Shown: positions 4,707 through 25,637 of the stretch, one piece after another
Layout of the letters: the number at the start of each line of letters is the position of its first letter
Numbering within the stretch: the stretch's first letter is position 1
Made by a program: the position numbers and the translations under genes
Notes under the pieces: generated by a model
Seen by the model: only the letters and a program-made list of their open reading frames with translations
Database searches by the model: none
Told to the model about the DNA's origin: nothing
IMG/VR virus record: IMGVR_UViG_3300044634_003261
Span: 1-25,637 of that record
Reading direction: 5' to 3' (one strand)
Source: a virus
Length of the DNA stretch: 25,637 nucleotides

Positions 4707-5079
4707 ATGGTAGTTCTAATTTAAATTGTTCTATGTATTGACTTACCTCACGAGAAGATATTTCAAGGCTGTTTGCAACCTTAAGCAAAGTGTCTTTATT
4801 TTTTATTGCTACTTCAGCCTCTTTTTTCTTTTTAATATAAGAAATACGTTTAAATTTGCATTGCGGTATAACTCCGTGCATATAGTTAAACCAAATCTCT
4901 TTGTCTCCGAGTGCAGACCACACTCTATTGCTCGTACAGTTTATAAGAGTAGCAATTTGAGGAGAGTGCATCGAGCACCAACGCTGTACCATATAAGGTA
5001 CAAACTCGTCACTCTCCTTAATATTGCTCGTATCAGGTCCTTTAGTTTTATAAAGAACCTTATTAATATAATCGAACAT
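4684..5079 (-). CDS. clamp-loader small subunit, gp62-like
   Basis: T4 gp62 joins four gp44 ATPases to load the gp45 sliding clamp onto primer-template DNA. This 131-residue protein has the compact form seen in T4-like phages of marine hosts: an N-terminal MFDYINKV helix, the segment FVPYMVQRWCSMHSP, then KEIWFNYMHGVIPQCKFKRI, where the (M)NYxxxxVP(R/Q)xKR pattern matches T4 FNYLMAAVPRGKRYGKW. The lysine-rich IKKKKEAEV and a C-terminal helical half follow. Its start overlaps the stop of the DUF366-like gene by one base, and its end overlaps the co-chaperonin start by 23 bases. The gp44 and gp45 genes are not in the window. Confidence 0.68.
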   Translation of the reverse strand: MFDYINKVLYKTKGPDTSNIKESDEFVPYMVQRWCSMHSPQIATLINCTSNRVWSALGDKEIWFNYMHGVIPQCKFKRISYIKKKKEAEVAIKNKDTLLKVANSLEISSREVSQYIEQFKLELPYEKKTAT

Positions 5080-5660
5080 TAAACAATAACTTTAGTGGTA
5101 GCAATAAAGATATTATCTACCATGCTATAGAATCGGTCGATAACAGCTTTTTGGAATTGCTCGGTTTGTTCCGGGGTGAGATTGGTGCTATAAGCAAAAG
5201 CGGGTGCACGTTTACCAGCTGAAACATTAACCCCGGTATGACCGATAGCTACATTCTCCTTAGAGTAGGTAATGCTTACTGAGGCCTTACCTTTTTGCTG
5301 AACGATACCGCCTTGATTATGCTCGGCATATACCATAATATCATCGCCCTTCATTTCAATAGGCTTGTTAATTATCTTATGTAGAATATTAGCGATTGCA
5401 GTATTAAATAGACGCTGAAAGCAAACTGCTCCGAAGGGATCAAGGTTAGGAATCTCCCAGCAGAAATTGACCATAGAGTCGCTATAGATATAATCCTTCT
5501 CGAGTGAATCCTCAAGGTCAATAAGATTGAGAGTAACCTCCACGGGCGCAGCGAAAGAAACGATATTACCGATAGGTAGAGTACGATCCCGAAAGTACTT
5601 ATAAGCAAATCGCTTGTGAATAAAAGAGCCGTCATAGTTTTGTTGATCTTTAATAATCAT
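5079..5660 (-). CDS. DUF366-like protein
   Basis: A 193-residue soluble protein that resembles the DUF366/COG2029 family of archaea and bacteria. The opening YDGSFIHKRFAYKYF, the segment GNIVSFAAPVEV and the segment LIDLEDSLEKDYIYSDSMVNF fit the family pattern YDGSQL..HWAY, IVAFxGPxxV and MVDLEDxxxxxxIxSxDMLHF as I remember it. The family has no established function known to me. It is translationally coupled to gp62, which suggests an early or middle expression class. No membrane segment or signal is seen. The assignment is by eye and a role in nucleotide or base modification, although tempting given the Que genes here, would be speculation. Confidence 0.6.
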   Translation of the reverse strand: MIIKDQQNYDGSFIHKRFAYKYFRDRTLPIGNIVSFAAPVEVTLNLIDLEDSLEKDYIYSDSMVNFCWEIPNLDPFGAVCFQRLFNTAIANILHKIINKPIEMKGDDIMVYAEHNQGGIVQQKGKASVSITYSKENVAIGHTGVNVSAGKRAPAFAYSTNLTPEQTEQFQKAVIDRFYSMVDNIFIATTKVIV

Positions 5661-7007: not shown

Positions 7008-7015
7008 TACTTATA
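7008..7015 (-). promoter_or_regulatory. late-promoter-like octamer TATAAGTA
   Basis: TATAAGTA on the minus strand differs from the T4 late promoter TATAAATA by one base and ends 5 bases before the ATG of the coiled-coil membrane protein. It overlaps the end of the glutamine amidotransferase gene. The surrounding bases 7004-7020 also form an inverted repeat (TTTATAC/GTATAAA). If transcription starts where it does in T4, the mRNA would begin at or next to the start codon. Confidence 0.45.
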
Positions 7016-7664
7016 GTATAAAGTACGGGGACTTGGACTCTATTTTTACTGGCATTTCCACTAATGCACCACCAGACAAAGTATAAACAGAGTTTTCCTC
7101 CAGTAATACACTACCTTCAAATGCGGTAGATGAAAAATCTCCGGTTTTTATATTAGCATATAGTGTACTTGAATTACGAGATATAAACAAAGTATCAAAT
7201 TTAGTATTGTAAGCCCAGACTGCAAATGTTCCTTCAAGTTTACTCAACCCATCAGTAATACCAAACTTATACATTAACCGAGGTATAATGCAGCTATCAG
7301 TTGCGCCAGTAAGGTCTTCTTCTGGAAAGTGTTCTCTAGCTAATTTTTCAAAATTGCTTACAATACCGTTATGTGATACTACCCACTGATTATAATAGAA
7401 CGGGTGGTTGTTTACGAGCTCGTAGCTCTTTGTCTCCACTGTTGGTCCTCGAGAGTGATATAAATAATAACACAACCCTGGAAAGTTATTGGTAGGGCTT
7501 TGCCATTGTGCTGGTTCATTAAAGCAACCTGAACGTTTAAACAAAAGATGATGTCTACGGTCTGCTGTAATTATAGCACCAGAGCTGTAGTAACCTCGAT
7601 TGAGATTGCTTTTATAGAGCTCAAACGCTCTCTCTTTGTTAAAAGATCCCGCTATACCGCACAT
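7011..7664 (-). CDS. class II glutamine amidotransferase, partner of QueC (Gat)
   Basis: A stand-alone N-terminal-nucleophile glutaminase domain of 217 residues that would release ammonia from glutamine. It begins MCGIAG, so Cys2 is the nucleophile after Met removal. Further family signatures are HSRGPT (70-75, the glutamine-binding Arg), NNHPF (85-89), SHNGIVSN (97-104, oxyanion and substrate) and GATDSC (120-125). There is no attached synthetase domain. It lies 3 bases downstream of queC in the same operon. In archaea and some phages a GAT domain is fused to a QueC domain (GAT-QueC) and turns preQ0 in nucleic acid into archaeosine (G+). A split Gat plus QueC here suggests the same chemistry, or direct ammonia supply to QueC. 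The function of the pair is inference; the domain itself is clear. Confidence 0.85.
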   Translation of the reverse strand: MCGIAGSFNKERAFELYKSNLNRGYYSSGAIITADRRHHLLFKRSGCFNEPAQWQSPTNNFPGLCYYLYHSRGPTVETKSYELVNNHPFYYNQWVVSHNGIVSNFEKLAREHFPEEDLTGATDSCIIPRLMYKFGITDGLSKLEGTFAVWAYNTKFDTLFISRNSSTLYANIKTGDFSSTAFEGSVLLEENSVYTLSGGALVEMPVKIESKSPYFIL

Positions 7665-7667
7665 ATA

Positions 7668-8387
7668 TTAAAGGTATGTAAGTTCTTTGCAGTTATACTT
7701 TGACCACGGTATATCTTTGGAGTATCCAATAGGATCAATGGTCTTATTGTCGATAAAGGCCTTGATACGAGCTGAACACGATACACATTCTCCGCATGCA
7801 GGATCAGTACCTTCATAACAGGTATGAGTCTGTCTAAAGTCTACTTGTAAATCGATACCTTTCTTGACGACAAGGTCCTTAGAGTAAGACATAAACGGAG
7901 CATTAACCTTAATCGTGTTCTTACGATTTAAATTATAAACATCGTTTACCTTATTCAGAAAAAGAGACGTAGTATCCCAATAACCGGAGAAGTCGTCAGT
8001 TTGTACCGCGCCGTAGTGTAGGTCGCTTGCACCGATGCTTTCAGCCCAACCAGCAGCTGTCGTAAGTAGTAATAGGTTTCTGAAAGGAACATAACTTAAA
8101 GGCTGGGCGTTGCCGATATCATCTCGGGCTTTTGGAATAGCAAGGTTAGTGTTAGTTAAAGCAGACATTGTAGAGATCTCTCTAAAGAAATCCATATTAA
8201 TGATCTTATGTTCTTTTACGTTGCAAGCTTTAGATTGATACTTAGCACATTCAATTTCTCTTATAATACGCTGTCCATAGTTAAAAGTGATAGCGTAAAC
8301 CTCGTCATATTTAAGTTCTTTTGTAACATAATGCAGTAGGATAGAGCTGTCCATACCGCCTGAAAGGATTACGAGTGCTTTTGACAT
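7668..8387 (-). CDS. queC: 7-cyano-7-deazaguanine (preQ0) synthase QueC
   Basis: QueC converts 7-carboxy-7-deazaguanine, ammonia and ATP to preQ0 in the cytoplasm. The 239-residue protein has the PP-loop SGGMDS at 9-14, the family motif YVPFRN at 99-104, and a zinc site formed by C190, C198, C201 and C204 (C...CGxCxxC). The normally well-kept stretch SGYPDCRPEF reads SGYWDTTSLF here (134-143), so the substrate pocket may be altered. The gene starts at the ATG at 8385-8387, divergent from the head-protein gene at 8447, and is followed 3 bases later by the glutamine amidotransferase. With QueD and QueE encoded near 13-14 kb, the phage carries three of the four steps from GTP to preQ0; FolE is not in the window. 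Confidence 0.9.
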   Translation of the reverse strand: MSKALVILSGGMDSSILLHYVTKELKYDEVYAITFNYGQRIIREIECAKYQSKACNVKEHKIINMDFFREISTMSALTNTNLAIPKARDDIGNAQPLSYVPFRNLLLLTTAAGWAESIGASDLHYGAVQTDDFSGYWDTTSLFLNKVNDVYNLNRKNTIKVNAPFMSYSKDLVVKKGIDLQVDFRQTHTCYEGTDPACGECVSCSARIKAFIDNKTIDPIGYSKDIPWSKYNCKELTYL

Positions 8388-12636: not shown

Positions 12637-12863
12637 TATGGAGTAGACTTAGGTTCGTCCGTATCGTTATCAACGTAGTCAAGATGGGCATTCTCAGGTG
12701 GAACATATCCTACTCCCTTCATAAAAAAATCAAACTGCTCTAAAAGCTGAGATATACTCATATCTCCAGGTAGTTCAACTACGAGCTTACGCTCAGTGCC
12801 GCAATGACCTGTAAAGGCATCAGTGTACTCGTTTTCGTAGATTAATGTAATTTTTTGCTTCAT
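12636..12863 (-). CDS. hypothetical protein, 75 residues
   Basis: Not recognised. A short acidic protein with an N-terminal strand pair (KITLIYENEYTDAF, RKLVVELPGD), a helix (ISQLLEQFDFFMKGVGY) and a disordered C-terminus DYVDNDTDEPKSTP. It begins in a four-base ATGA overlap with queE and ends with a one-base overlap onto the kinase gene, so it is tightly coupled to both. Tight coupling supports a real gene that works with, or is dosed with, QueE or the kinase. Confidence 0.72.
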   Translation of the reverse strand: MKQKITLIYENEYTDAFTGHCGTERKLVVELPGDMSISQLLEQFDFFMKGVGYVPPENAHLDYVDNDTDEPKSTP

Positions 12864-13669
12864 ACTTTTAAAGCTTTATCCCAAACTTGTAAGTGCATTC
12901 TATTAGAGAATTTAAGGTTATATTTCTTACAAATATCGGCTACAGCAGGAGCAATCTTAATAAGCTCTTCTCTAGATCCACACATTGGCATAATCCAAAT
13001 CAACTCTTCTGGAAGATTAATCTCAGGGTTGTTTACAAACTTCTCATACATTTCATCCAGATCTGATTCCTGTTTAGCAACAAACTTAAAGCAAGCCTTG
13101 TGCTTAATAAGGTAGCGAATAACTTCTGGTTTAAAGCGCTTGTCTTCCGGGTCACCGTTAACAGAAAGCTTAGGAGAAGTAGTGTAGGTTACTTCGCAGC
13201 CAGTTGTTAGCCAACCTGCATCAGGTAAAATAGTACCATTAGTTTCAAAGTCTATGTATAAGGTCGGCCCGATAGGGTTATCAGAAGATGCGTTAAGTGG
13301 TTTACTATAGTCCGCAAATCCCCACCGGTCTCTAATAAAATGTACAAATTCTAAGAGATTCTTTTGCTGAATAAAAGGCTCTCCGCCAGTAAGCTTAAGA
13401 AGTGCACCCTCTTTAAGACGGTTATGATAGTCGTTCTTTTCATAGAATTGTGCAATCTCTTCAAACGTCATCTTGTTCTTCTTAGACCACGAAATATAAC
13501 TATCACAACCGAAAGGTGCGTCTGGGCTCTTAAAACCAATACAGGTAAGATTGCACATTGACAATCTCATGAACACTGAAGGATAACCGATATACTTACC
13601 TTCCCCCTCTAGGGTGTAAAATACAAAATCGTCACTCAAAAAGAGTGTTTTATTAGGATCAATAGTCAT
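12860..13669 (-). CDS. queE: 7-carboxy-7-deazaguanine synthase QueE (radical SAM), variant cysteine motif
   Basis: QueE rearranges 6-carboxy-tetrahydropterin to 7-carboxy-7-deazaguanine using a 4Fe-4S cluster and S-adenosylmethionine. Family marks are YTLEGEGKYIGYPSVFMRLS (18-37; QueE: SIQGEG..G.P..F.R), the SAM-binding TGGEP at 94-98, and the closing FSNRMHLQVW. The cluster cysteines are C39, C43 and C55 followed by Asp56, i.e. Cx3Cx11C. This differs from standard Cx3Cx2C and from the Cx14CxxC of Burkholderia QueE. The length of 269 residues is slightly above typical bacterial QueE (about 210-230). It lies 21 bases after queD and runs into the 75-residue gene through ATGA. A TATAATA stretch lies just before the ATG. 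Confidence 0.88.
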   Translation of the reverse strand: MTIDPNKTLFLSDDFVFYTLEGEGKYIGYPSVFMRLSMCNLTCIGFKSPDAPFGCDSYISWSKKNKMTFEEIAQFYEKNDYHNRLKEGALLKLTGGEPFIQQKNLLEFVHFIRDRWGFADYSKPLNASSDNPIGPTLYIDFETNGTILPDAGWLTTGCEVTYTTSPKLSVNGDPEDKRFKPEVIRYLIKHKACFKFVAKQESDLDEMYEKFVNNPEINLPEELIWIMPMCGSREELIKIAPAVADICKKYNLKFSNRMHLQVWDKALKV

Positions 13670-13690
13670 ATGTTATTATACGCTGTTAAA

Positions 13691-14161
13691 TTAGCTTTTC
13701 CATACATGATCCGGAGAAGTCTTCTCGTAGATCGCACTATTGCCTTCGTGTTCCCAGACTTCTACTTTCTGTACCCAGCAACGACCATAAGTTGACTCCT
13801 TAATATAATCATCGGCTACTTCAAAGCAAAAGTTTGCAAATTTCTCGATACCAACACCGTCTGCCATAATTACAAGTTCGATCATATCGCGTTTATCAAG
13901 TTCTTTAAACATATCGAGATCAGGGTCGGTACCTGAGACCACAGTCTTATGGTCGAACGTCTCTTCTAGTATATTCTTAAGCTCTTTAAGAGCTCCAAAG
14001 TCAACGACCCAGTTATTACTATCAAGCGAGCTACAGGTAAACCAGAACTTAGCTTGTAAACGATAACCGTGAATAAAACGGCAATGACTTTTAGCAAGCG
14101 GCTGTCTGAATGCACAGGAGCCGAGCGGTATAACCTTGGTAGAAACGTATCTGTTGCTCAT
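13691..14161 (-). CDS. queD: QueD-like 6-carboxy-tetrahydropterin synthase with altered zinc site
   Basis: QueD converts dihydroneopterin triphosphate to 6-carboxy-tetrahydropterin, the step before QueE. This 156-residue protein keeps the fold marks of the PTPS/QueD family: catalytic-type C27 three residues before HG (CRFIHGY, 27-33), VVDFGALK (52-59; family: VxDFxxLK), the pair D70-H71 in TFDHKTVV, and the terminal VEVWEHEG (family: VxVxET). The zinc site is unusual: the family AAH motif reads CAFRQ (16-20), so the first His is Phe18, and HGH reads HGY, so the last His is Tyr33. His26 and His31 remain. It is therefore either a divergent QueD with other ligands or an enzyme of altered chemistry. 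It is followed by queE, so pathway membership is well supported. Confidence 0.82.
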   Translation of the reverse strand: MSNRYVSTKVIPLGSCAFRQPLAKSHCRFIHGYRLQAKFWFTCSSLDSNNWVVDFGALKELKNILEETFDHKTVVSGTDPDLDMFKELDKRDMIELVIMADGVGIEKFANFCFEVADDYIKESTYGRCWVQKVEVWEHEGNSAIYEKTSPDHVWKS

Positions 14162-19511: not shown

Positions 19512-20550
19512 TTCAGAAGTAGGGATCTTTTCAGATCCACATTACGGAGTACATCGTAATAGTGAAACTTGGCATAAAATTGCACTTGAACATGCTAAGT
19601 GGGCTGCTGAACAATTTCGCCAAAGAGGCATTAAAGATATAATTATACCCGGAGACATATTCCATGATCGAAACGATATTGCTGTTAATACTCTTCATAA
19701 TACTACCGATATTTTTGATTGTCTGCGCGAGTTTAATATTATCATTACTGTGGGCAATCATGACGCTTTTTATAAAGATAAGTCTGATATTAATTCAATT
19801 TCTATTCTCAGAGGCTGGTCTAATATTAGTGTTGTTGACACTCTTATGGTGGTTGACACGCAAGGCAAAAAAATAGCTTTCTGCCCGTGGGGTCAAGATG
19901 TAGAAGCAGTTCCAAAATGTGATATTATTTTTGGTCATTTTGAAATTAATAGCTTTAAGATGAACAGCTTTAAGATCTGTACTAACGGACTCAAGGCCTC
20001 TGACTTAACAAGTCGCGCACCTCTCACTATTACCGGACACTTTCATCACCGAGAAGAAAGAAAGTACGACGATGGTACTATTCTTTATGTAGGGTGTCCG
20101 TACCAGCAAGATTGGGGTGACTATGGTACCACTAAAGGCTTATACATATTAGATCTAGATACTCTTAAATACGAGTTTATCGAGAATATTATATCCCCGC
20201 GTTATAATAAAATTAGATATTCTGATATTGCTAACGGCACTTATACTGCTGAATCTCTTCGAGGGTTTATTAAAGGCAATATAGTTAAGTTTTTTATTGA
20301 CAAACAGCTAGAACCTAACGTAGTTGACTCAATTATTAGGAAGCTTGTCTCTATTAAGCCAGCTGAATTTACAATAGAGTATGACTACACAGAGTTATCT
20401 AAAATAAATGCTGAAGAAGCTAATTCTAAAGATTTTAATGTTAGTGTAGAGAATTCTATATCTGAATTTATTGATTTACTTGATGTTAAGTATAAGGATA
20501 AAGTAAAGACTTACGTAACTGAGTTATACCACAAATCTACAAACGCATGA
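19498..20550 (+). CDS. gp47-like recombination nuclease subunit (Mre11/SbcD family)
   Basis: T4 gp47 and gp46 form the Mre11-Rad50-type complex that resects DNA ends for recombination. The phosphoesterase motifs are all visible: FSDPHYG (D13, H15), IPGDIFHDR at 50-58, VGNHDAF at 85-91, and ITGHFHHREE with its metal histidines. The capping region follows to residue 350. T4 gp47 is 339 residues, so length is normal. The start at 19498 overlaps the sigma-factor gene by 14 bases. The partner gp46 (Rad50-like ATPase) does not follow; the next genes are glycosyltransferases, so gp46 must lie elsewhere. Confidence 0.93.
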   Translation: MKIINSEVGIFSDPHYGVHRNSETWHKIALEHAKWAAEQFRQRGIKDIIIPGDIFHDRNDIAVNTLHNTTDIFDCLREFNIIITVGNHDAFYKDKSDINSISILRGWSNISVVDTLMVVDTQGKKIAFCPWGQDVEAVPKCDIIFGHFEINSFKMNSFKICTNGLKASDLTSRAPLTITGHFHHREERKYDDGTILYVGCPYQQDWGDYGTTKGLYILDLDTLKYEFIENIISPRYNKIRYSDIANGTYTAESLRGFIKGNIVKFFIDKQLEPNVVDSIIRKLVSIKPAEFTIEYDYTELSKINAEEANSKDFNVSVENSISEFIDLLDVKYKDKVKTYVTELYHKSTNA

Positions 20551-21353
20551 AAATTGGAGCTGCTATAATTGCCTGTGATCGGGTTGAATACACTAAACAA
20601 TGTGTTGCTAGCCTTATGGCTAATAAAGGACCTCTTGATGAGATTGTTCTGATTAATGATGGTCTTAAATTACCAGAAGGAATTATACCAGAAGGTATTC
20701 ATGTAATCGAAAACAGACCACCTTATCAAACGGTAGGTAAAGCTAAGAATAAAGCTCTTAAATATCTTATAAATGCAGGCTGTGACCATATTTTCTTAAT
20801 TGAAAATGATATCATTATTAAATCTTCTGATGTATGGAAGAAATATATTGATGCTGCTCAAGGGTCTGGTATTACGCATTTGAATTTTGGTTATCATGGC
20901 CCGGCTAACAGAACACCAGACTACAAGAAACCTAACCCTAGATATATTGTAGAGTATCCAAACAATATTAAAATAGCTTTAAATGCTCATAGTGTTGGTG
21001 CATTTTCGTATTTTAATCCTATCTATATTAAAAAAGCCGGGGTACATGATGAATACTTTAAGAATGCCTGGGAGCATGTAGAACTTTGTCAACGCGGTAT
21101 TAAAGCTAATTTGTTACCAGCGTTCTGGTGGTTTCCAGATGTTGAAGGTAGCGATGAGCTGTTAACGGAGATTCCAGGCTCTATTCAGAACAGTTCTATT
21201 ACTCATACCGAGACTTGGACTACTAATATGAAGAAAGGTGCAGATTATTATAGAAAGCAACATGGCGTATCTGCTATAGAAAATCCTGATACACCCTTAG
21301 ACGTAGTACTTTCAAGACTTAAAGGCATTTATTTAACTTGTAAAGGGGTATGA
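20547..21353 (+). CDS. family 2-like glycosyltransferase
   Basis: A 268-residue GT-A glycosyltransferase, first of the rightward glycan cluster. The N-terminus KIGAAIIACDRVEYTKQCVASL is the standard nucleotide-binding opening; VLINDGL (34-40) gives the base-contact acidic residue; FLIENDIII (83-91) has END in place of the DxD metal motif; and a central AFSYFNPIYIKKAGVHDEYF and AWEHVELCQRG match the acceptor-side ED motif region. It starts in a four-base ATGA overlap with gp47 and ends the same way with the GT11 gene, so these genes are translated as one unit. Substrate and acceptor are unknown. Confidence 0.83.
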   Translation: MKIGAAIIACDRVEYTKQCVASLMANKGPLDEIVLINDGLKLPEGIIPEGIHVIENRPPYQTVGKAKNKALKYLINAGCDHIFLIENDIIIKSSDVWKKYIDAAQGSGITHLNFGYHGPANRTPDYKKPNPRYIVEYPNNIKIALNAHSVGAFSYFNPIYIKKAGVHDEYFKNAWEHVELCQRGIKANLLPAFWWFPDVEGSDELLTEIPGSIQNSSITHTETWTTNMKKGADYYRKQHGVSAIENPDTPLDVVLSRLKGIYLTCKGV

Positions 21354-22156
21354 TTACGTTTTCCAAATTAGGTCGTCATGGTAACCTAGGAAACTCAATG
21401 TTTCAGCTGGCTGCTACTGTAGGGGCAGCTATTAAGAAAGGTTATGAGGTAAAATTACCACGTCATGAGACTTATTTTGATATACACTATAACTGTAACA
21501 ACGTATCTATTTTTGACGGTTTTGATGTAGATATACCTGTTTTAGCCCCAGAGGATCTAAAAAAAATAAAATATATTCACGAAGAGCCTCATTTTCATTA
21601 TAGTTCTAGTATAGATAATATACAAGACAATACAGATTTAACTGGTTACTATCAATCTGAACGTTACTTTAAGCATGCAAGTAAACAAATAAGAGACATA
21701 TTTAAATTTAAGCAGCAACATGTTAACTCTAGTAACGATCTTTTTGGTTATCTGGAAATAGACCCCCAAGAGACAACCTCTTTACATATACGCAGAGGGG
21801 ACTTCGTTAATAAGCAGCAGTTTCACCCTTTGCAATCATCTCAATACTTTTTTGAAGCTACTGTATCAGCGCGCTTAAAAAACGTTCTTGTCTTTTCAGA
21901 TGATATACAATGGTGTAAAGATAATATAAAGAGTAAGAATGTATATTATTCAGATTTAACTTCATGCTTTTCAGATATGAAAGCAATGTCAATGTGCCGG
22001 AACAATATTATCGTTAACAGTACGTTTGGGTGGTGGGGTGCATGGTTAAATGAGCATCCCAATAAGATTGTAATTGCCCCTAAGGTGTGGTTCGGCCCAG
22101 GCAACGCACATTTAAATTCTTCTGATGTTATACCTTCAGATTGGATAAAATTATGA
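21350..22156 (+). CDS. alpha-1,2-fucosyltransferase-like glycosyltransferase (GT11)
   Basis: GT11 enzymes transfer fucose from GDP-fucose to galactose-type acceptors in surface polysaccharides. The 268-residue protein has the N-terminal motif LGRHGNLGNSMFQLA (7-21; GT11: GGLGNQMFQYA), the GDP-sugar motif SLHIRRGDFV (144-153; HxRRGD), VFSDDIQWCK (181-190) and the C-terminal NSTFGWWGAWL at 223-233, which is the family's third motif. All core residues are present, so it is probably active. It is joined by ATGA overlaps to the genes before and after. Fucosylation is the family activity, but related sugars are possible. Confidence 0.88.
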   Translation: MITFSKLGRHGNLGNSMFQLAATVGAAIKKGYEVKLPRHETYFDIHYNCNNVSIFDGFDVDIPVLAPEDLKKIKYIHEEPHFHYSSSIDNIQDNTDLTGYYQSERYFKHASKQIRDIFKFKQQHVNSSNDLFGYLEIDPQETTSLHIRRGDFVNKQQFHPLQSSQYFFEATVSARLKNVLVFSDDIQWCKDNIKSKNVYYSDLTSCFSDMKAMSMCRNNIIVNSTFGWWGAWLNEHPNKIVIAPKVWFGPGNAHLNSSDVIPSDWIKL

Positions 22157-22959
22157 AAGAAATACATATAAGAGATTCCTCTTTTGCGCATTGCGTATAT
22201 AGCAATAACCCGATGCCACCTAAAACGTTTTCAAAACATATTAAATGGAATAGAGAATCAGGAGACCCTAAGAATACCGTATACACTGACTACCATGTAC
22301 AAGAGTGTGACGGGGGTATTGGCTGGTTGTTAGAACCACGCGAGTTAATCCCTCACGTTTATAACTATGTAGAGCAAAATACTCACAAATTTAGAGAGAT
22401 ATGGTCCCACGATACAAAGTTTATTGAAAAGGTTAACGGTACGTTTGTACCGTTTGGTGGTTGCTGGATTGACGAGCAAGACTACGCAATACACCCTAAG
22501 TGTAAAAACTTTTCTATTATAGCATCAGGTAAGAGACAATTACCTGGTCATTTGTTGAGGCATCAAATCATACAAGCTGGTGGTTCAAACATTGATGTAC
22601 TTGGTAACGGGTATAGACCTATTAAAGATAAGATTGAAGGATTGAAAGACTATAGATATCATTTTGCTATAGAGAATTGCAAGAAAGACGTATGGTTTAC
22701 CGAAAAGCTTATTGATTGCCTGGTTACTGGTACTATCCCGGTATACTGGGGGTGTCCTTCTATTTCTGCTTACTTTAACGATGAGGGGTTTATTATTTTT
22801 AATGACCTTGTGGAATTAAAAGATAAACTTAAATTATGCACCCCTGAGTACTACGAAAGCAAGTTACCGGTTATTAGAGAGAATCTTGAATTAGCAAAAA
22901 AATACCTTTTATCGGAAAATTGGATACACGAACATGAACTTTATATCTCACAGAGGTAA
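22153..22959 (+). CDS. GT10 fucosyltransferase-like protein
   Basis: GT10 enzymes are alpha-1,3/1,4-fucosyltransferases. The C-terminal half of this 268-residue protein carries the family signature: YRYHFAIENCKKDVWFTEKLIDCL (167-190; GT10: FxLxFENSxxxDYVTEKLxxxL) and TGTIPVYWGCPSI (192-204; GxxPVxxGxxxx). The N-terminal half has no detectable motif and is a divergent acceptor domain. I chose the ATG at 22153, which overlaps the GT11 stop by ATGA; a TTG four codons earlier is less likely. Its end overlaps the next start by 26 bases. Sugar specificity is inferred. Confidence 0.82.
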   Translation: MKEIHIRDSSFAHCVYSNNPMPPKTFSKHIKWNRESGDPKNTVYTDYHVQECDGGIGWLLEPRELIPHVYNYVEQNTHKFREIWSHDTKFIEKVNGTFVPFGGCWIDEQDYAIHPKCKNFSIIASGKRQLPGHLLRHQIIQAGGSNIDVLGNGYRPIKDKIEGLKDYRYHFAIENCKKDVWFTEKLIDCLVTGTIPVYWGCPSISAYFNDEGFIIFNDLVELKDKLKLCTPEYYESKLPVIRENLELAKKYLLSENWIHEHELYISQR

Positions 22960-23440
22960 TTTAACCGGTAAAGGGGACCGGGAAAATCACCCCGATCAAA
23001 TCAAACTTTGTGTAGACCAAGGTTATGAGGTAGAGATAGACGTATGGGCTATAAATGATAAGTTTTTTCTAGGTCATGATAACGCTCAATATCCTATTGA
23101 CTTTATGTTTCTATGCAACACTCCAGGGCTCTGGATACATTGTAAAAACATTGAAGCATTAAGAATTTGCAAGTTGCCATACTACAATTTAAACTGCTTT
23201 TCAATAGACAAAGACGATTTTGTAGTTACCACCCGTGGTAATATATGGTTGAGTCCTACTTATCAAGAATTTTATAAACAATCTATATGTGTTATGCCAG
23301 AGGATACGCGTTGGCACTTTTCTAAAGAACAATTAGCAGATTTTGATGGAATTTGTTCAGATAACATATATCATTATAAGAATTATGTTACTAATCTTAG
23401 ACGTAGACGGGGTACTCACGAACGGAAAGAAGTATTATGA
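22934..23440 (+). CDS. glycerophosphodiester phosphodiesterase-like protein
   Basis: A 168-residue protein that keeps the GDPD-type catalytic set: SHRGNL (H6, R7), YEVEIDVW with E34 and D36 (the GDPD ExD metal pair), and FFLGHD with H48. A barrel-like continuation follows (WIHCKNIEALRIC; MPEDTRWHFS; DFDGICSDNI). It is shorter than typical GDPDs (about 240 or more), so the barrel may be incomplete or compact. Small GDPD-like genes of this kind occur within sugar and LPS gene clusters. Here it could trim a phosphodiester-linked glycan precursor, but this is inference. The 3' end overlaps the phosphatase gene by 56 bases. Confidence 0.72.
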   Translation: MNFISHRGNLTGKGDRENHPDQIKLCVDQGYEVEIDVWAINDKFFLGHDNAQYPIDFMFLCNTPGLWIHCKNIEALRICKLPYYNLNCFSIDKDDFVVTTRGNIWLSPTYQEFYKQSICVMPEDTRWHFSKEQLADFDGICSDNIYHYKNYVTNLRRRRGTHERKEVL

Positions 23441-23912
23441 TAGTACCGGTAAAGCGGTATTAAAATCTTTTAATGACCGAGACTTTACAGCTATTAAAAA
23501 ATTTAGAGCTACAGGGTGGAATGTTGTATTCCTTTCAGGGGATCCTAATATTAACCAAAAGGTAGCTGAAAACCGCAACATACCGTTTTATACTAACCGT
23601 AAAGACGGGGTAATGAGTAATAAGGCTACGTTCATTACTCAATTCGAAAAAGAGTATAACGTCACCACTCAAGAAATGGTTTACGTTGGGGATGATATAT
23701 TTGATATCGGCATTATGAATTTAGTTAAATATAAATTTTGCCCGCAGGATTCACCTCGGGAAGTACGTAACGTATCTGACATCCGTATATTACGTAGCAA
23801 AAGCGGTGAAAATTGTTTAACTGAACTATACGAGCACCTTTTTTATATGAAGCTAGTTAAAAGTGTAACCGTAGAGGAGGTCGAAGCACTTGATCGTAAT
23901 GAAAAGTTTTGA
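23385..23912 (+). CDS. KdsC-like HAD phosphatase
   Basis: A 175-residue haloacid dehalogenase-type sugar phosphatase related to KdsC. Motif I is LDVDGVLTNG (5-14), motif II FLSGDPN (49-55), the conserved lysine is near K80, and motif IV is VGDDIFDIGIM (101-111). Like KdsC it has almost no cap domain. The ATG at 23385 gives the natural N-terminus before motif I; earlier in-frame starts would add an unlikely tail. It overlaps the GDPD-like gene by 56 bases and the kinase-like gene by 14. In the cluster it could remove a phosphate from an intermediate of nucleotide-sugar synthesis. Confidence 0.85.
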   Translation: MLLILDVDGVLTNGKKYYDSTGKAVLKSFNDRDFTAIKKFRATGWNVVFLSGDPNINQKVAENRNIPFYTNRKDGVMSNKATFITQFEKEYNVTTQEMVYVGDDIFDIGIMNLVKYKFCPQDSPREVRNVSDIRILRSKSGENCLTELYEHLFYMKLVKSVTVEEVEALDRNEKF

Positions 23913-24579
23913 TATAGCAATTTACGGTCATTTAAGCTATGACAACATTTACGAAGGTTTTAATTATAAGTCTTCGGTAGGATGTATGGGTAATGTCTGG
24001 AATCAGCTCAAGATAATAAATCCAGATCTTAAAGTAAAGCTTGAGCCTACTGACATTGGTGAGTCATTGATCTTAGCAGACGTAGAACAGTGCAAAAGAA
24101 CGAGTGTATCCCGTTTATCACTTAAAACTCAAGCACCTTCTATACATGATAGTAAAGTTAGTCACGTAATGTATATTAACGAACTATCCGATACTAGCTT
24201 TATTAAAGATCTTAAGGGTTTTGTTACTGCAGATGTGTGTAACGGCAAGTCTTTAAACTTAAACGATAAAAACTTACAATATATTGATCTTTTATTAATC
24301 TCAGATGAAGATATGTTCGTGGACATTGCCACGCTTTGTAGTGTCATTCGAGGCTCGGTATTAATGCATTATCCTACCGGTAGCACGCTTTACAAGCAAG
24401 ATTTGCATTTTACTAAACAAAACGCTACGCTTGTATCCGGAATAAACGTATTAGGTGCTGGAGACAAACTTGCTGCTTATATACTTGCAGGATTACTTGA
24501 TAGTACCAACGCTCTTCCTAAAGTAATACAGCACGCTCACAGCGCACTTACCAATTACTATATAAATGAAAAAATATAA
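23899..24579 (+). CDS. PfkB/ribokinase-like sugar kinase
   Basis: A 226-residue member of the PfkB carbohydrate kinase fold. The opening FDIAIYGHLSYDNIYEG (4-20) is the family's first strand, and GAGDKLAAYILAGLL (186-200) is the PfkB signature with the catalytic base D189. A Gly-rich VGCMGNVWNQL lies where the substrate-side GG motif usually is. It is about 70 residues shorter than typical PfkB enzymes (around 300), so the lid is reduced. The ATG at 23899 fits better than an upstream TTG. With the isomerase, phosphatase and nucleotidyltransferase around it, it resembles the kinase step in heptose-type nucleotide-sugar routes. Confidence 0.75.
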   Translation: MKSFDIAIYGHLSYDNIYEGFNYKSSVGCMGNVWNQLKIINPDLKVKLEPTDIGESLILADVEQCKRTSVSRLSLKTQAPSIHDSKVSHVMYINELSDTSFIKDLKGFVTADVCNGKSLNLNDKNLQYIDLLLISDEDMFVDIATLCSVIRGSVLMHYPTGSTLYKQDLHFTKQNATLVSGINVLGAGDKLAAYILAGLLDSTNALPKVIQHAHSALTNYYINEKI

Positions 24580-25637
24580 TCTTTTAGTACCACTTGCCGG
24601 TCGAGGTCAACGCTTTGTAGATGAAGGCTTTGTTGTTCCGAAGTATATGATTACTGCTTATGATAAGCACCTTATTGACTGGGCGTTAAGTTCTATTGAT
24701 ATATCTGAATGTAATCTTATATTTTGTTTAAGACAAGACCATATTAATAATTTCGGAGTTGATGAAATATTTCGTAAAAAGTTTGGTAATGATATTAAAA
24801 TTGTAGTAATAGATCGCATCACAGACGGTAGTGTATCTACTTGCTTATTAGCTAAAGAATACATCGATAATGAACTACCACTATACATTTACACTGTAGA
24901 TGTGCACTTTGGTCCTAAATTTAAACCAGCTGAAATGGTTAATGATGGGCTCATTCTTACATTCAAGAGTAATAATCCGGCATATAGCTACGTTAAGCTT
25001 AACGAGGAAGGATATGCTTTGCTTGCTGCTGAAAAAGAGGTAGTGAGCAGTAATGCCTGTGTTGGGGTGTACGGCTTTAAAAGTGGTAGTAAGTTTGTAG
25101 AATACGCCGAGTCAATGATTATGCACAATATGCGTACTCGTAACGAGTTTTACATTACCCCTATGTATAACTTAATGATTGAAGATGGTCTTAAGATCTC
25201 TATCAAAGAAGTAGATGAGATGTACATTATGGGTACCCCAGAAGAATATAAGTTTTTTACTACTCGAGTGTTAAATCAATTCGGTAAAGGTAAAGTGGCT
25301 CTTGCGTGCGATCATAGCGGCTACGAATTAAAAGAGCAGTGCAAAAAAATACTTGAAAGACATGGCGTGGAATACGTAGACTTAGGTTGTTTCACTAAAA
25401 AAGATTGCGATCAATTTGATTACATCTCTCAAGCTGTGCAGTTTATTAAAAACGGTACTTGTACTCACGGTATTGGTTTTTGCTGTACCGGTCAAGCAGT
25501 CAATATTGCTGCTAATAAGACTGACGGTATTAGATCGGCTTTAATTTACGATGCATATAGTGCTGAATACTCAATTAAGCACAATTGCTGTAATTTCTTT
25601 GCAATACCCGCTCGTATCACTACTCCAGAAATATTAG
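24566..25637 (+). CDS. fusion: sugar nucleotidyltransferase plus RpiB-like isomerase, cut by window edge
   Basis: One open frame with no stop, 357 complete codons to the edge. Residues 1-235 are a nucleotidyltransferase: LLVPLAGRGQRF (6-17; GxGxRF), VVPKYM (23-28; the PK motif), the metal aspartate in YTVDVHF (D112), and EVDEMYIMGTPEEY near its end. Residues 242-357 are an RpiB/LacAB-type isomerase: VALACDHSGYELKE (244-257), GIGFCCTGQAVNIAANK (302-318) with the catalytic Cys at 306, and YSAEYSIKHN and PARIT. The His that opens the sugar ring in RpiB is Tyr328 here, so the substrate is probably not ribose 5-phosphate. The two activities together could make a nucleotide sugar from a ketose or pentose phosphate. 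It overlaps the kinase gene by 14 bases. Confidence 0.85.
   Translation, partial: MKKYNLLVPLAGRGQRFVDEGFVVPKYMITAYDKHLIDWALSSIDISECNLIFCLRQDHINNFGVDEIFRKKFGNDIKIVVIDRITDGSVSTCLLAKEYIDNELPLYIYTVDVHFGPKFKPAEMVNDGLILTFKSNNPAYSYVKLNEEGYALLAAEKEVVSSNACVGVYGFKSGSKFVEYAESMIMHNMRTRNEFYITPMYNLMIEDGLKISIKEVDEMYIMGTPEEYKFFTTRVLNQFGKGKVALACDHSGYELKEQCKKILERHGVEYVDLGCFTKKDCDQFDYISQAVQFIKNGTCTHGIGFCCTGQAVNIAANKTDGIRSALIYDAYSAEYSIKHNCCNFFAIPARITTPEIL

Follow-up and report, generated by a model that had tools for sequence, protein, structure and literature searches.

A stand-alone glutaminase encoded beside a variant QueC in T4-like phages: probable second subunit of a glutamine-dependent preQ0 synthase

What does a free-standing glutamine amidotransferase do next to the QueC of a phage? 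The question is posed by a 25,637-base IMG/VR fragment (the window: the whole stretch of DNA analysed here) of a T4-like phage, recognizable as such by a tail sheath stabilizer, a UvsW-type helicase and a late sigma factor. Its minus strand carries queC (positions 7668-8387; 239 aa), which codes for a predicted preQ0 synthase, an ATP-dependent enzyme that forms first an amide and then a nitrile, and, 3 bases further on as a separate ORF, gat (7011-7664; 217 aa). Also on the minus strand are queE (12860-13669; 269 aa), for the radical SAM enzyme CDG synthase (PHROG 2076 QueE-like, E 2e-40), and queD (13691-14161; 156 aa), for CPH4 synthase (PF01242, E 1e-16; PHROG 2389 QueD-like, E 2e-35). An earlier note, made from the letters and reading frames, had put queD and queE at 13-14 kb, and the PHROG matches across 12860-14161 bear this out. 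It had further suggested a possible archaeosine-type outcome: the separate Gat and QueC might act like the fused Gat-QueC of phage 9g and archaea and convert preQ0 to archaeosine (G+) in phage DNA. As it had also said, FolE and DpdA are absent from the 25,637 bases of the window, and so is QueF.

The gat product is an active-looking class II glutaminase of the Ntn type. Its ORF, Pfam matches (GATase_6, E 2e-10; GATase_7, E 2e-7) and motifs (Cys2; HSRGPT, residues 70-75; SHNG, 97-100; TDS) confirm the earlier reading of an intact enzyme 3 bases after queC, and C2, R72, H98-N99-G100 and D123 are invariant across 26 aligned relatives. An AlphaFold (AF2) model shows a confident Ntn fold (pLDDT 90), with the glutaminase domain of GlmS (1xff, TM 0.72) as its nearest structural neighbor, and a median dN/dS of 0.098 over 127 pairs places the gene under purifying selection. 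The protein ends in the tail SPYFIL (residues 212-217; 7014-7031, minus strand), of which S212-P213-Y214 is invariant in 26 relatives, and all 14 of the divergent Gats listed have the pattern [NSH]P[YF] close to their C-terminus; the model drops below pLDDT 50 at residues 215-217, the very end of the tail. Our guess is that this NPY/SPY-type tail is a peptide that docks on QueC.

Comparison of the loci indicates that the queC-gat arrangement is genuine and ancient, and that it extends to familiar phages. A QueC search yielded 69 related IMG/VR loci, 58 of them with complete queC and gat ORFs; all 58 have gat behind queC and in the same orientation, and the spacing ranges from a short overlap to 20 bases in all but L052, some of the longer overlaps stemming from an upstream start codon. 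A Gat profile reaches more divergent lineages, in which the two genes adjoin (L184/L185) or have two genes between them (L183), and the linkage also holds in further marine lineages such as the deep L357-L363. In two loci of different lineages a GIY-YIG homing-endonuclease-like gene lies between queC and gat (L052, 10707-11405; L363, 815-1459), and Gat has not been lost despite these insertions. L183 (830-4672) has a GMP-reductase-like gene, identified by eye, after queC and before gat. Among cultured phages the pair is found in Pseudomonas phage pf16 (pf16_78/77) and in Vibrio phages, KVP40 and nt-1 (VPFG_00172/00173) among them, and the pairs of KVP40, nt-1 and pf16 agree with that of the window in gene order, QueC clade and C-terminal Gat motif. 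The nt-1 Gat (VPFG_00173, annotated as hypothetical) matches the profile with E 2e-12, and when it is used as a tblastn query all 51 matches in cultured phages lie 12-63 bp after the QueC match. Gat is likewise labelled hypothetical in KVP40 and pf16, and in phage 2.275.O it is annotated as a nucleophile aminohydrolase. The 349-kb record of Vibrio phage V07 (MT135025.1) holds a QueC-Gat pair plus a 9g-like Gat-QueC fusion; perhaps it is two phages in one assembly.

This linkage bears on the reading that Gat has no link to QueC and is an amidotransferase subunit for sugars or nucleotides, its neighborhood having been inherited by chance. While the nearest relatives of Gat in fold and sequence are GlmS glutaminase domains and glycosyltransferase genes lie near it, it lacks the GlmS isomerase domain and stays with queC as the other neighbors change between lineages, so that we regard such an origin as highly improbable. 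Gat homologues consistently beside non-Que genes, a pattern that the earlier note had named as contrary to its proposal, are not what the loci display: Gat follows queC. One scan of cellular genomes for a stand-alone Gat returned three GlmS proteins only, and weak matches in Staphylococcus and Enterococcus phage records proved to be bacterial GlmS.

The QueC of the window is a canonical family member in most respects (PF06508, E 6e-59): it has the SGGMDS loop, VPFRN and the four zinc cysteines of a preQ0 synthase. Two motifs depart from the canon: alignment and motif tables place YWDT at residues 136-139 (7971-7982, minus strand) in place of the YPDC substrate motif, and YxQxHxxE reads YGQRIIRE, with the histidine replaced. 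The tyrosines of both are kept; in E. coli QueC these tyrosines are essential, and the YPDC motif is located in the substrate pocket (PMC13329287). Three types of QueC can be told apart: those with YPDC or a near variant and no Gat, those with Y[WH]D and a separate Gat, and the fusions with xxDN and YxC. The second signature is present in all 78 loci with a readable motif among the 80 Gat loci. YPDC itself is found in Flavobacterium phage immuto, E. coli and other phages, with FPDC in Campylobacter phage CP220 and YADC in Sour. Two loci outside the set from which this rule was formed, L349 and L354, share the DpdA context, lack Gat and have a YPDC-type QueC, the room for Gat in L349 being only 830 bases. 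Likewise, among phages with the DpdA-like gene, L357-L363 combine a Y[WH]D QueC with an adjoining Gat and L364-L369 have YPDC and no Gat. The immuto-type QueCs (L110, 4519-5400; L364-L369) have lost all four zinc cysteines while keeping YPDC and VPxRN, and the QueC of L183 has lost three of the four.

Gat thus goes with one kind of QueC and not with the downstream genes. The groups with and without Gat have QueF and the DpdA-like gene in common, so that the presence of Gat is not tied to the downstream chemistry; in the Gat group itself Gat is constant, although the phages differ in their transglycosylase (DpdA2 or DpdA3-like) and in the last gene (QueF, ArcS or none found). In the QueC tree the Gat-linked QueCs form one clade (support 100/99), apart from the fused Gat-QueCs (100/100), of which only two entered the tree and the signature comparison; on this tree we reject a simple split of the 9g-type fusion. 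As the linkage arose once on the tree, the correlation of motif and Gat represents one retained event rather than repeated ones, and its weight therefore rests on retention.

Two known arrangements invite comparison. Like the window, the fused Gat-QueC of 9g and some archaea unites a class II glutaminase and a QueC-type ATP pyrophosphatase in a phage 7-deazaguanine pathway. The window, however, has two proteins, a QueC of a separate clade and the signature YWDT with YxQ instead of YPDN with YxC; its Gat does not group with the fused Gat domain, and its relatives encode QueF. The archaeal two-subunit GMP synthetase similarly couples an ATP pyrophosphatase of the QueC superfamily with a glutaminase from a separate, adjoining gene (PMC13329287), but that glutaminase is of class I (PF00117), whereas the Gat of the window is of class II (Ntn).

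Since the window is a fragment, we infer the presence of QueF, FolE and DpdA in its own phage from relatives. The nearest large ones, G001 (QueC 96% identical) and G002 (88%), carry a DpdA-like gene and QueF; FolE was not found in these two partial contigs and is encoded in 4 large relatives of the clade. The DpdA-like protein (268-274 residues) is present in all 6 large contigs searched, its gene lying directly after that for DNA polymerase in relatives whose contigs extend there. The family first came to light as a weak TGT match and then by tblastn, and the evidence from its sequence alone is weak: phage 9g DpdA as a query matches nothing in the relatives, and a search of PDB sequences with the DpdA-like profile gave no match. 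Its AF2 model (pLDDT 89.5, from an alignment of 31 diverse relatives) has a TGT fold: each of its 24 best PDB matches is a tRNA-guanine transglycosylase (best E 2e-8). The protein is 49% identical to an immuto protein annotated as DNA guanine transglycosylase and 41% identical to a protein of CP220, and we take it to be of the DpdA3 type. The clade differs in this from nt-1, KVP40 and pf16, which use DpdA2-type transglycosylases. A second, weaker TGT match occurs at L071. DpdA3-like proteins are very common in aquatic phages, with at least 556 occurrences in IMG/VR, and many of the loci L285-L356 have a single cluster in the order QueE-FolE-DpdA-formyltransferase-QueF-QueC-Gat-QueD.

Among 73 loci with room after the DpdA gene, QueF comes after it in 72 and a formyltransferase in 71. 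Aligned with E. coli QueF, the QueF of the relatives has the NADPH motif ESKSxKL[YF] and the catalytic SNCxxTxQPD. The formyltransferase, which adjoins DpdA, is PurN-like (PF00551, E 3e-7) and keeps the N-H-D residues; it may be DpdN, the dPreQ1 formyltransferase. A related module occurs in immuto, with DpdA (49%), formyltransferase, QueF, QueD, QueE and FolE, but the QueC there retains YPDC, no longer has the zinc cysteines and is without Gat. The search for folE and a DpdA/TGT-like gene that the earlier note had proposed has therefore turned up both in close relatives of the phage, and in place of the absence of dpdA that it had held to be damaging there is a TGT-fold DpdA-like gene. The presence of FolE and this protein in close relatives supports a pathway to 7-deazaguanines in DNA.

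On these grounds we propose that Gat and QueC probably constitute a two-subunit, glutamine-dependent preQ0 synthase, in a pathway whose end product is probably a base of the dPreQ1 type and not archaeosine. QueC is known to use free ammonia (PMC13329287, PMC13060819), and a glutaminase partner is hence the simplest job for Gat. In the proposed route FolE, QueD and QueE would make CDG, Gat would hydrolyse glutamine and pass the ammonia to QueC, and QueC would convert CDG to ADG and then to preQ0 at the cost of two ATP. QueF would reduce preQ0 to preQ1 in the phages of this clade, the DpdA-like transglycosylase would exchange guanine for preQ1 in the phage DNA, the PurN-like formyltransferase beside dpdA would probably formylate the base, and the modified base would protect the DNA against restriction. 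The likely base is dPreQ1 or its formylated form, because QueF and the formyltransferase accompany DpdA. The earlier note had a single QueC both making preQ0 and possibly amidating it; preQ0 synthesis with glutamine nitrogen suffices, and such a second activity is unneeded.

We consider it unlikely that the separate Gat and QueC make archaeosine in DNA as the 9g and archaeal fusions do. Gat is indeed an active-looking glutaminase adjoining QueC, and fused Gat-QueC together with DpdA yields dG+ in E. coli, where plasmids with the 9g proteins carry dG+ at roughly 9-18% of G (PMC6884629). The L184/L185 lineage also fits: its 125.7 kb contain QueC-Gat and DpdA, and a search there for QueF, the formyltransferase, FolE and ArcS found none. 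Against this stands QueF, an enzyme that uses up preQ0: 13 of 19 records in one set and 15 of 17 in a second have it as well, and so do pf16, KVP40 and 2.275.O. Moreover, QueC of the window type lacks the xxDN and YxC of the fusions and belongs to a different clade. The DNA of nt-1, a phage that shares the QueC-Gat pair and in addition encodes an ArcS homologue, contains per million nucleotides 232 dPreQ0, 72 dADG and 44 dG+ (PMC6884629), a trace of dG+ that amounts to only ~0.02% of G. QueF-L, the relative of QueF that makes archaeosine, reportedly takes free ammonium and not glutamine (PMC5485725). With QueF and formyltransferase genes beside DpdA, QueC in a clade of its own and nt-1 DNA almost devoid of dG+, neither archaeosine as the outcome nor the idea of a 9g-type enzyme split in two is supported, while the other part of the earlier proposal stands: Gat and QueC appear to act together, in a pathway most likely directed at DNA.

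It is very improbable that the amide is as far as Gat and QueC go, so that ADG is made and inserted as dADG, a base reportedly found in the DNA of Campylobacter Firehammerviruses. Such an outcome would agree with the 41% identity of the DpdA-like protein to that of CP220, with the position of the altered YPDC motif in the substrate pocket (PMC13329287) and with the dADG of nt-1 DNA (PMC6884629). The QueC of CP220, however, is YPDC-like (FPDC) with no Gat near its gene, and most of the group has QueF, which requires preQ0.

A third reading, which we judge quite improbable, is that the pathway serves host tRNA, raising the supply of preQ1 or queuosine to aid translation. A role in tRNA modification was proposed for pf16 in 2017 (PMC5587285), and a TGT fold by itself cannot separate a DNA from a tRNA substrate. 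DNA as the substrate is suggested instead by three features: the DpdA-like family and fold, with kinship to the immuto protein annotated as DNA guanine transglycosylase; the place of the TGT-like gene just after that for DNA polymerase; and the resistance of pf16 DNA to PvuII, EcoRV, BamHI and HindII, with DraI cutting slightly (PMC5587285).

A stricter version of the two-subunit proposal, with an obligate nitrile synthase in which QueC is the docking site of the NPY/SPY tail of Gat and is adapted by its altered YPDC motif to channelled ammonia, seems to us evenly poised between right and wrong. Gat evolves faster than QueC, and in L005 the QueC is 97% identical to that of the window and Gat only 53%, the neighboring genes being mostly 88-97% identical. 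Gat alleles thus seem, from these identities, to have been exchanged separately from QueC in some loci; one would not expect this of a tight partner, and it counts against the reading as paired subunits.

If the two-subunit proposal is right, a large group of aquatic bacterial viruses carries a separate Gat that probably feeds glutamine nitrogen to QueC, in a variant of the known 7-deazaguanine pathway of which we found no description in the literature that we could search. There would be a glutamine-dependent route to the nitrile base beside the known QueC that uses free ammonia, and, within the same literature, the first QueC known to take glutamine nitrogen would occur across many aquatic T4-like phages. 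A gene called hypothetical in the well-studied KVP40 and nt-1 would gain a function. It would also separate two kinds of Gat, both otherwise read as archaeosine genes, and predictions of the DNA base from gene lists could therefore be corrected. The cultured phages pf16 and nt-1 make the proposal directly testable.

Two further features of the window deserve mention. Four genes after gat lies a DUF366 (PF04017) gene (5079-5660, minus strand). All 55 clade loci with room for this gene keep it (75-100% identity), and so does the deep L184/L185 lineage; its sole match in a cultured phage is in Microcystis phage MaAM05. Its product may act in the pathway of Gat and QueC. Positions 20547-25637 (plus strand) hold a glycan-synthesis-like cluster, most genes of which were identified by eye: several glycosyltransferase-like genes, a HAD-like phosphatase, a sugar-kinase-like gene and a nucleotidyltransferase-like protein fused to an RpiB-type isomerase.
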